Positions 23,871-27,811 of a stretch of DNA of 64,000 bases are shown here, one piece after another. Each line of letters opens with the position of its first letter. The stretch's first letter is position 1. Under the pieces are notes generated by a model. It was not told the DNA's origin, made no database searches, and worked only from the letters and a program-made list of their open reading frames with translations. This DNA is from Dehalococcoidia bacterium (GTDB lineage: Bacteria > Chloroflexota > Dehalococcoidia > Lucifugimonadales > Lucifugimonadaceae), in contig DUCO01000040.1 in NCBI GenBank assembly GCA_012959765.1, positions 62,001-126,000 of the forward strand. The letters are read 5' to 3'. The position numbers and the translations under genes are program-made.

Positions 23871-24065
23871 ATGTGTAGAGCTACTGCTGGCCCTTTGCTG
23901 GCGATGATGGGTGTTGCGGGCACAGCAGCCGGGGTTGGACTTGCGATCGTGCGCGAGCGACTCGATCGAAGAGCCGACACCCGCGCAATGAAGGAAGCGG
24001 CTGAAGAGCAGGCTGCGAGCGATTCTGAATCCAGCTCAACTGATGCTCCCACTGACCGCGACTAA
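23871..24065 (+). CDS. Small single-pass membrane protein, unknown
   Basis: A 64-residue frame: one hydrophobic segment ([19 protein letters not shown]) then a charged Arg/Glu/Ser/Asp tail. Codon third positions look like those of neighbouring genes and the amino-acid order is that of a plausible N-out or N-in anchor with a cytosolic tail. It converges with the next gene, the stops overlapping by 4 nt. I do not recognise a family, and a chance frame remains possible. Confidence 0.4.
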
Positions 24066-26146
24066 CTGAGCTGTTCGATCAACTCGGCGACGCTGGTCAC
24101 GGGCAATTTGCAAGCGTAGTTCTCACACACGTATGCCGTGGCTTTGCCATTGATCTGTTCTCTGCCCTCTAGCAGTGGCGAGTCATTGCTTTCTCCAGAT
24201 TCACCGTTTCCCCCAGCAAGTACCGTGTTGGGAGAGAACGATCCGTGTAACTCGCGCTTCATCTCGACGATTCCTGTGTCGTCAGAATCGCCGATTAACA
24301 CTACTTCCTGTGATCCAGATCGCAAGAAATCGACTGCACTGAGCCAGGAAGTAACGGCAGCTGGCGCCTGCTCCATGTGAAGTATCAACGCCTGCATCGA
24401 AGCCTCGGCCTTGCGGGCGTATTCGCTGTCGCCGGTGAACACGCTTAAGCGCAGTAAAGCCATCGCCGCAACCGATCCGCCACTTGGCACCGCATTGTCG
24501 AGCACATCACGAGGGCGCACGAGTAACTTTGAATGCTCAAGCGACGTGTCGTAGAACACCTGCCAGTCGGAGTCCCAGAAGCGTTCGATCATCTGGTTCG
24601 CCAGTCGCTGCGCCTCATCGACGTACGAGTAGTCGAATGTTGCCTCATAGAGCGTCAACAGAGCATCTATCAGGTAAGCGTGGTCGTCCAGATACCCGAG
24701 TATTCGTGCTTCGCCTGCTGAGCCAGAGTCAGAATGAGAATCAGAAGCATCGGTCGCTTTCCATGTGTGGAGCAATCGACCCTCGGAGTCTTTGACCTGA
24801 TCGAGCAGAAGACGTGCATTTTTCTCGGCGACAGCGACCCAATCGTCGTTTTCCAGTACCGCCCCGGCCTCGGCGAATGCCTTGAGCATTAGTGCGTTCC
24901 ACGATGTGAGGATTTTGTCGTCGATACCGGGTGCGACTCGCTTCGAACGTTCTTCCAGCAGTAACCCTTTGACACGCTCGATATCGGCGATCATGTCTGC
25001 TGGTTCCTGCCCTGAGCGAGAAAGAAACTCTTCACGCGACATCGGCAAATACAGAATATTCGACTCTTCGAAATTGCCTTCTTCGGTAACGCCCCAATAC
25101 GCCTTCGCCAACTCAGCGTCGGTCGAGCTCAGTAGCCTGTCGATTTCGTCTGAGGTCCAGACGAAGAACTTTCCTTCAACACCCTCTGAATCGGCATCAG
25201 ATGCCGAATAGAACCCACCCGCAGCGTGGGTCATCTCCCGTGATACGTACTCCAGAGTTTCTTCGACGATTCGTTTGAACAGCGGTTTCTTCGTCGCCTG
25301 ATACGCATGCAGATACAGAAGCACGAGTTGGGCGTTGTCGTAGAGCATTTTTTCGAAGTGAGGTACAAGCCAGATTTCGTCGACTGAGTAGCGTGCAAAC
25401 CCTCCGCCTATCTGATCGTATATCCCGCCATGTGCCATCTTTTCCAAGGTGAGAGTCACGATGTCGAGCACCTGTTTGCTGCCCGTTCGCTTCCAGTACC
25501 TGAGCAGCAACTCGTAGATCATCGGCTGTGGGAATTTCGGAGCGCCCTGCGACCCGCCATTTTCAAGATCGGCGTTTCCAACGAGATGGGTAAAGCTTCC
25601 AAAGATCAGTGATTCATCAACACTGCCTTCGTTTTTGCGGGGAGTCGACTGCTCACGAATCGAATCGACCACTTTTTGCGAGTTCTCAAGTAGCTCGTCA
25701 CGCTTGTTGGCATAAGCGTCAGATATAGCACCCAGAATGCGTGGGAAGCCAGCCATGTTGGGTCGATCTTCGGGCGGAAAATACGTTCCACCAAAGAACG
25801 GGTGTCCGTCGGGAGTGATGAACACTGTAAGCGGCCAACCGCCTGATCCGGTCATTGCCTGAACCGCCGTCATGTAGATCGAATCGACGTCCGGTAATTC
25901 CTCGCGATCGACCTTGATGTTCACGTAGTTGGCGTTCATGAACGCCGCAATCGACTCGTTTTCAAACGATTCGTGGGCCATGACGTGGCACCAGTGGCAA
26001 GAGGAATATCCGATAGACAGCAGAATCGGTTTGTTGAGCAGAGTTGCGGCTGCAAACGCCTCGTCGCCCCAGGGATACCAGTCGACCGGGTTGTCCTTGT
26101 GCTGGAGCAGGTACGGACTTGTTTCGTTTGCGAGACGGTTGGGCAT
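24062..26146 (-). CDS. YyaL/SPATA20-type protein (DUF255 thioredoxin-fold plus glycosidase-like barrel)
   Basis: A 694-residue protein beginning [26 protein letters not shown], the family hallmark. The thioredoxin-fold part has CHWC in [16 protein letters not shown] near residues 48-51, with [13 protein letters not shown] and FFGGTYFPP. The remainder is an (alpha/alpha)6-barrel resembling N-acylglucosamine epimerases, with [17 protein letters not shown]. The precise activity of the family is unsettled; a thiol-redox role is inferred from CxxC. It lies downstream of another thioredoxin-like gene on the same strand, 156 bp apart. Confidence 0.9.
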
Positions 26147-26302: not shown

Positions 26303-27811
26303 TCATAAGCCGTTTAATTCGAGAGAGTAAACCTCACCAGTGTCGAATTCGAAAACTTTGATTTTGTGATTATTCGTGTCGGCGATGAACATTTTGTTGC
26401 CGGTCACAGCAAGCCCTGCAGGTTCACTGAATTGTGCAATCGACGAGTTGCCATCGACATCGCCCTGTTTGCCTGAACCAGCAACGGTGCTCACCTGAAG
26501 TGATCCGATAGTGATGGACTTAATTTTGTTGTTGTAGGAGTCTGCAATGTAGATAGTGTCGTTGTGAACAACCAATCCCTGGGGGTGCTGCAGCAACGCC
26601 TCTTTACCGACAGCATCACGATCGCCAAAGTCGAAGAGCCCGGTGCCCACCAGCGTTACCACCCTGCCCTCTTCTGCAATCGCTGACACCCGCACCGAGC
26701 TCGTTTCGCTATCGACGAAGAACACAGCGTTGTTCGACACATCGATTCCGTACGGTTGAGCGAGGCGGGCTGCGTCCTTCAGATCGTCAACAATATCCTC
26801 GCCGCCATCGCCCGCGAATGGCGCTACTTCTCGCTCATCAAGATCCATGGTCCAGAGTTGATGGAATCCTGCCATCGCTATGTAAAGAATGCCGCTTTCG
26901 AGCGACAGATCGTACGGCGAGTTGAGCGGTACTTTTAGAGCGTTCCCGCCCTTGTGACGGTAAAGCGACTGCTCACCTGTGCCAGCTATCGTTTCGGCTG
27001 TACCTGCTACCAGATCAACACGAACTATCGTGTGGGTTCCGGCGTCGGCGACATACAACGTATCGCCATCGATCACCGTTCCCTGCGGGTTTTCGAACAA
27101 TGAATCATTAAATTTGAGCGAGCCATACACGCCTCTGTTATCACCGCTGGCGAGCGGTGATTCACCGTTACCTATGATCGACTCAACGTTGCCTTCGAGA
27201 TCGGTAACAACCAGACGGCGATGATTGGAATCGGAAATCACCAATCGTCCACGCTCGCCATCAGTCGAGATCTTTCCCGGGAACGAAAGCTGGGTGTCGG
27301 CACCCGATTCCAGTTGTAGCGCGAATGGACCGCGCTTGAACAGTCCTGAAGACTCGTGCTCTTCGATCATTCCGGCCAGCACCTGGTCGAGCGCGTCGAC
27401 GGGGAATTCACCTTCGTGTCGCCCGATGACCTTGCCAGAGGGGTCGAGGAACATCAGGGTTGGCCATGCTCGGGCGGCGTACGACTTCCATATCTCGAAA
27501 TCAGCGTCGTTCACCACCGGATGCCCAATGCCGTATCGACGCACTGCCTCGCGCACGTTTTCCGATGATTTCTCGGCGTTGAATTTCGCCGAGTGCACAC
27601 CCACCACCGTCAGCACATCAGCGTACTTTTTCTCCAGCTTCCGCAACTGCGGAAGTACGTGCATGCAGTTAATTCAGCAATAGGTCCAGAAGTGGAGAAT
27701 TACGAGTCGGCCAGCCAGATCGGCGAGTGTGAGGGTCGATTCCGTGTTGAACCACTCGAGATTCTCAGGAAACTGCGGGGCATGAATGGTGCCTTCATAT
27801 CGAGTCGCCAA
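26303..27811 (-). CDS. NHL-repeat thioredoxin-like protein, probable selenoprotein (in-frame UGA at 27674-27676)
   Basis: An NHLRC2-like redox protein: an N-terminal thioredoxin fold followed by an NHL beta-propeller (ENPQGTVIDGDTLYVADAGTH, LQHPQGLVVHNDTIYIADSYNNKI, SEPAGLAVTGNKMFIADTNNH). From TTG 27809-27811 (AGGGGG upstream) the frame reads APQFPENLEWFNTE ... LADLAGRLVILHFWTYC, then TGA, then INCMHVLPQL. Relatives have Cys-Cys-Ile-Asn-Cys here, so TGA replaces the second Cys and would be Sec46 paired with Cys49 (UxxC). A downstream hairpin fits a SECIS. Without Sec insertion, translation could start only at ATG 27664, losing the first thioredoxin strand and active site. With Sec the protein has 502 residues. 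Confidence 0.82.
27638..27655 (-). promoter_or_regulatory. Candidate bacterial SECIS hairpin
   Basis: In the mRNA, CUUCCGC-AGUU-GCGGAAG forms a perfect 7-bp stem with a 4-nt loop whose second base is G. It starts 18 nt after the UGA, placing the loop 25 nt downstream of it. That geometry fits known bacterial SECIS elements (short apical loop with a G in the first two positions, close behind UGA inside the coding region). Confidence 0.7.

Follow-up and report, generated by a model that had tools for sequence, protein, structure and literature searches.

Human NHLRC2 combines a thioredoxin (Trx)-like domain with a six-bladed NHL propeller, to which an extra C-terminal beta domain is added (6gc1; PMC6107167). 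Its CCINC motif is found where the first helix begins, near the propeller and juxtaposed to a cis-proline that faces it (PMC6107167). The lumenal Trx-NHL part of Arabidopsis SOQ1 (7djj, 7djk) contains the same two domains and the same motif, within a protein that also carries HAD and transmembrane parts. Full-length bacterial Trx-NHL proteins with the CCINC site occur in Planctomycetota, Acidobacteriota, Armatimonadota and other groups, and are referred to here as Cys-type. Mice cannot live without NHLRC2, and mutations in it are found in FINCA disease; in plants, photoprotection is controlled by SOQ1. An established reaction for the NHLRC2/SOQ1 family is not known to us, and thiol-disulfide exchange activity was itself inferred in PMC6107167. 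The relevant passages of that paper do not discuss selenocysteine (Sec) forms; the matches to "selen" shown there refer to selenomethionine.

Known selenoproteins with a Trx fold and a UxxC motif make up a second set of related systems. The catalogued families Trx-like 1, Prx-like 3/"Redoxin family protein" and thiol-disulfide isomerase-like (PMC2398784, PMC13188914, PMC1088965) have a bacterial SECIS element (bSECIS) directly downstream of the UGA, but no NHL propeller is named for any of them, and the 2022 list gives no domain for the "Redoxin family protein".

The DNA analyzed here, called the window below, is a stretch of 64,000 nucleotides (C40:62001-126000) from a 2.63-Mb genome that is 92% complete. 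Comparison with named relatives placed this genome in the Dehalococcoidia, within the genus of Candidatus Lucifugimonas (SAR202) and next to Candidatus Lucifugimonas marina JH1073. A putative Trx-NHL selenoprotein gene of 502 codons occupies positions 26303..27811 of the minus strand, with an in-frame UGA at 27674..27676 where relatives encode the second Cys of CCINC. We consider it very likely (probability about 0.94) that this UGA is read as Sec in this bacterium, and very probable that many of its Chloroflexota relatives do the same, although selenium insertion remains inferred, without protein or selenium data.

The fold is shown by comparison. The protein matches the Pfam models NHL, Thioredoxin_8, AhpC-TSA and Redoxin, and its AlphaFold model (pLDDT 91.8) has SOQ1 (7djk, TM 0.90) and NHLRC2 (6gc1, TM 0.88) as top PDB matches over the full length. 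Sequence identity is 41% to SOQ1, the closest solved structure, 36% to human NHLRC2 (phmmer 1.5e-94) and 45-50% to the bacterial Cys-type proteins. A Trx-like domain followed by a six-bladed NHL propeller, the architecture expected of this family, is present. So are the expected CC(I/V)NC motif and conserved cis-Pro, except that Sec takes the place of the second Cys (C-U-I-N-C); Pro117, which corresponds to the NHLRC2 cis-Pro, is invariant (alignment A3). NHLRC2 and SOQ1 differ in having Cys at the Sec position and SOQ1 also in its photoprotection role, whereas the bacterial Cys-type genes have TGC or TGT in place of TGA and lack the hairpin described below.

Reading frame and codon conservation at the UGA

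The frame starts at a TTG codon (27811, minus strand), continues through LVILHFWTYC-TGA-INCMHVLPQL and meets no further stop before the terminal TGA at 26305-26303. In two orthologues (L030 and L042) an in-frame stop directly precedes the equivalent of the TTG codon and leaves this start alone, which supports TTG 27811. Standard ORF calling instead begins at a misleading ATG (27662..27664, first base 27664) four codons behind the UGA and yields an ORF at 26303..27664 of 453 amino acids from which the active site is lost. An earlier note, made from the sequence alone, had described both the open frame and the truncated call, and had recognized NHLRC2-type proteins with Cys-Cys-Ile-Asn-Cys as relatives; these claims held.

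Under one alternative, translation really ends at the UGA, the 45 codons upstream represent a remnant or a leader, and synthesis from ATG 27664 gives a propeller that lacks the active site. The standard ORF call gives exactly this product, and the ATG is close behind the UGA. However, the 44 codons upstream of the UGA show the divergence pattern of coding DNA, with proportions that match those downstream of the UGA: third positions account for 64% of changes, with 940 synonymous versus 516 nonsynonymous codon differences. Moreover, the motif FWTYC-U-INC is retained in more than 120 genomes, and Cys, found in reverted lineages, is the sole replacement observed at the UGA codon. A true stop is therefore very unlikely, and comparison shows the frame to be coding on both sides of the UGA.

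Conservation of the codon was followed from the lineage of the window to other phyla. Within the lineage family, each long match covering the site has exactly one TGA, and 43 distinct TGA orthologue sites were read. A long match is found in 135 of the 250 genomes examined from the order, namely 122 with TGA, 11 with Cys and two that do not cover the site; a further 49 TGA loci were fetched, and all 49 have TGA at the same codon. The codon position was confirmed in every locus that was read. The TGA form also occurs in further orders belonging to the class (f60, f96 and f99; f-codes, including f2, f137, f140 and f174 below, are group labels of this analysis), and within the phylum Chloroflexota it is present in 52 of the 72 genomes that have the gene. 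By contrast, a cross-phylum scan of Cys-type homologues from many phyla found TGC or TGT at the TGA column in all 69 sequences read. The exchange of Sec and Cys is thus shown by comparison, and an in-frame UGA aligned with the Cys of homologues, one criterion for a selenoprotein, is met.

A sequencing or assembly error could have turned TGC or TGT into TGA by a single base change. This is all but excluded, since 122 genomes of the order, each assembled independently, share this TGA, and one of them is the closed genome of the isolate JH1073 (L059). One order-level copy (G177:C349:8665-10125) contains a TAG besides the TGA, reflecting gene decay or an assembly error.

Our scan of named genomes used search patterns that contained Cys and was therefore biased against TGA copies, so that the distribution of Sec and Cys forms was taken from the genome searches instead. 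No unbiased survey of Sec forms outside Chloroflexota stands behind this distribution.

The hairpin behind the UGA

Inside the coding sequence, a hairpin (CUUCCGC-AGUU-GCGGAAG; 27638..27655, minus strand) starts exactly 18 nt downstream of the UGA. It satisfies the published bSECIS model (PMC13188914, 2026), which allows a loop of 3-9 nt with G in its first two bases, a stem of 4-16 bp, a distance of 16-37 nt between UGA and loop, and a minimum free energy of at most -7.5 kcal/mol: here the loop has 4 nt (AGUU) with G second, the perfect stem 7 bp, the apical loop lies 25 nt behind the UGA, and the hairpin folded alone has -10.4 kcal/mol (z -5.7). In the 63-nt native context of the window's own sequence, the minimum-energy fold slightly favors another pairing. 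The case for the hairpin therefore rests on conservation and comparison, not on folding energy.

This comparative evidence separates Sec from Cys forms. At codons +6 to +13, synonymous codon identity among Sec forms is 0.93, compared with 0.44 for the whole gene; none of the other of 494 windows along the gene scores as high, while in Cys homologues the value is ordinary and not raised. All seven pairs can form in 117 of 127 distinct Sec sites but in none of 93 Cys sites. In the phylum-wide alignment the covariation score is 0.314 versus 0.160 for shuffled alignments, none of 500 shuffles reaching the observed score, and four hairpin pairs show double compensatory changes. Covariation is clearest for the pair at columns 27-34, which is mostly G-C and becomes C-G where CCG..CGG changes to CCC or TCC..GGG. 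A structure that covaries in UGA forms and is absent from Cys forms, a further criterion for a selenoprotein, is thereby met.

In the family of the window, the hairpin may be extended by two base pairs with one bulged base (UA...C-UG; 27635..27657, minus strand). AU is found here in 43 of 43 sequences and UG or UA in 42 of 43. The last two bases of codon +6 are always TA, with V, I or L as the encoded residue, because the UA..UG step across the bulge is kept.

The hairpin could also be a by-product of the conserved PQLRK motif, with Sec inserted through some other signal. In support of this view, CAG TTG CGG AAG encodes conserved residues, conserved QLRK might, in principle, account for some of the constraint at the nucleotide level, and the alternative fold of the window's sequence is slightly more stable. 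Against it, synonymous positions are frozen in Sec forms only, in Cys homologues the corresponding codons specify different residues and the hairpin is missing, and in three sequences (L261, L262 and L275) the CCG..CGG swap changes Arg to Gly and yet keeps the pair. We regard this explanation as very unlikely. Conservation and covariation of the hairpin are shown by comparison; that it acts as the bacterial SECIS for this UGA is very likely on the same grounds, without readthrough data.

Selenocysteine machinery and the history of Sec and Cys forms

The genome contains selB (320 bits; cut-off 242), selA (511 bits), selD (371 bits) and a tRNA-Sec with a UCA anticodon, so that the joint presence of selA, selB, selD and tRNA-Sec, another criterion for a selenoprotein, is met; the machinery is shown by this comparison. 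The selD gene (G000:C46:97712-98638, L019) contains an in-frame TGA of its own and is itself a Sec gene. Behind its UGA lies the hairpin CUUGCCCA-GGUCU-UGGGCAAG, which shares with that of the Trx-NHL gene a GU in the loop, but differs in the loop (GGUCU instead of AGUU) and in the distance of the apical loop from the UGA (32 instead of 25 nt). A genome-wide search with a covariance model of the Trx-NHL hairpin had this locus as its sole match (9.5e-15), the next reaching 19.7 bits with an E-value of 1.3; the model is therefore gene-specific and uninformative on other SECIS elements.

In the proposed mechanism, SelB with Sec-tRNA(UCA) would decode the UGA at 27674-27676, directed by the SECIS hairpin 18 nt downstream. 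Alternatively, a suppressor or an altered code could allow the UGA to be read as Cys, Trp or another standard residue. Homologues do have Cys at the site, and near-cognate misreading of UGA is known to occur. However, UGA is an ordinary stop in 8 of 49 long ORFs of the window and also terminates the Trx-NHL gene itself, indicating a standard genetic code, and the genome has tRNA-Sec(UCA), full selABD and a covarying hairpin of SECIS form behind the UGA. Readthrough with a standard residue is accordingly very unlikely.

The remaining claims of the earlier note can be judged on these results. The perfect 7-bp hairpin that it had reported 18 nt behind the UGA, with AGUU as its loop, was confirmed; the bSECIS check it proposed gave a hairpin that meets published constraints and covaries, and the proposed alignment of the TGA column gave Cys in relatives. 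It had also stated that no selA, selB, selC or selD lies in the window, which is correct, selA being located 3.75 kb beyond the window's left edge within the same contig, and it had named selA, selB, selD and tRNA-Sec(UCA) as genes to look for in the rest of the genome, where all are present. Neither absent Sec machinery nor a sequencing error, its two grounds for refutation, applies. Its central claim that UGA 27674-27676 encodes Sec is supported by these computational checks, with selenium insertion still inferred.

Presence of selB was considered as a predictor of the Sec form and proved weak because selB is near universal in the genomes examined. Cys forms and selB occur together in several genomes (f2, f140), so that selB alone has no power to predict a Sec form. 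Only a one-way statement can be made: genomes with TGA but without a selB match are all incomplete (56-89% complete), and none is among those at least 90% complete. Two order-level relatives that are more than 90% complete (G245 and G150) have a Cys form and no selB match, which fits loss of the whole Sec system.

A quick tree, many of whose inner branches are weak, was built without the site and hairpin columns. One Chloroflexota clade (SH-aLRT 99) contains 58 Sec and 13 Cys forms, a Sec form (L262) falls among Cys forms outside this clade, and the whole tree requires at least nine changes of state between Sec and Cys. The simplest reading, which we regard as likely, places Sec at the base of the large Chloroflexota clade and invokes repeated reversion to Cys. 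Two Cys-type sequences (L255 and L271) from large Chloroflexota genomes of f140 retain the AGUU loop and still form six of the seven pairs. These hairpins are probably fossils, apparently decaying SECIS elements left after reversion from Sec to Cys.

Redox site, neighboring gene and significance

In our reading, Sec would replace the second Cys of CCINC in a cytoplasmic Trx-fold oxidoreductase joined to a six-bladed NHL propeller, a homologue of human NHLRC2 and of the lumenal part of plant SOQ1. The cytoplasmic location is inferred, no signal peptide being seen by eye, and the same holds for disulfide or selenenylsulfide reductase activity and for the substrate, for which the propeller is predicted to form a cleft.

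The earlier note had proposed a Cys-Sec-x-x-Cys motif, which needs to be refined. Residue 45, directly before Sec, is Ala or Gly in f60, f174 and f137 (for instance Ala in f60 and Gly in L247 and L262), so that Cys is not required there and the conserved pair is U46 and C49 (U-x-x-C). For the same reason, a selenenylsulfide between vicinal Cys45 and Sec46 was ruled out as a general mechanism. U-x-x-C is the likely catalytic pair, an inference without activity data, in which, by established thioredoxin chemistry, the selenol of Sec46 would attack and the thiol of Cys49 would resolve.

A gene for a YyaL/SPATA20-like protein with a Thioredox_DsbH (DUF255) domain, identified by Pfam, lies 156 nt downstream (24062..26146, minus strand). 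Such a gene adjoins the Trx-NHL gene in six further loci (L153, L154, L156, L157, L139 and L145) and is located near the Cys-type gene of L066. Conservation of this neighbor in many genomes of the order suggests a linked function and gives a lead to a shared pathway.

In seven genomes of genera g2 and g3 of the same family (L278-L284), a separate thioredoxin-like gene of fewer than 200 aa contains an in-frame TGA within the motif WTYT-U-[YR]-N-C and looks like another selenoprotein. Single-sequence folds of these seven loci gave no clear common hairpin, and no TGA copy of this gene was among the matches in the genome of the window.

We found no previous description of an NHL selenoprotein in the sources consulted. 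None of the 119 prokaryotic selenoprotein families listed in PMC13188914 contains an NHL domain, and NHL is not mentioned in the main text of PMC9312934, PMC2398784, PMC1088965, PMC12013277, PMC5029168 or PMC5330540. Searching the literature for a selenoprotein together with NHL, NHLRC2, SAR202 or Chloroflexota gave nothing relevant, selenium is not mentioned in the Candidatus Lucifugimonas paper (PMC10444878), and no NCBIfam model for the full protein scored over its cut-off. The protein matches PF08534 at 9e-9, and PF08534 with UxxC also characterizes the catalogued "Redoxin family protein", with no direct comparison to a catalogue representative; it is possible that short metagenomic reads of this gene are contained in the broad classes Trx-like 1 or Prx-like 3. 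Protein family and decoding mechanism are each known, and it is their combination that is apparently unlisted in the selenoprotein catalogues examined. A bolder reading, which we consider likely, is that of an uncatalogued selenoprotein family: the Sec form of NHLRC2/SOQ1 Trx-NHL proteins, which was already present in the ancestor of a large Chloroflexota clade and repeatedly reverted to Cys, leaving fossil SECIS elements behind.

If correct, this would add an apparently unlisted selenoprotein family to the marine SAR202 clade, which has a cultivated strain, and one whose gene is truncated by standard gene calling. Several independent reversions from Sec to Cys with decaying SECIS elements would make the Chloroflexota useful for studying selenoprotein loss. 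For the family as a whole, Sec at the second Cys together with tolerance of Ala or Gly at the first argues for redox catalysis and indicates the attacking residue. The second Cys of CCINC would then be identified as catalytic in a family with an essential human disease protein among its members.
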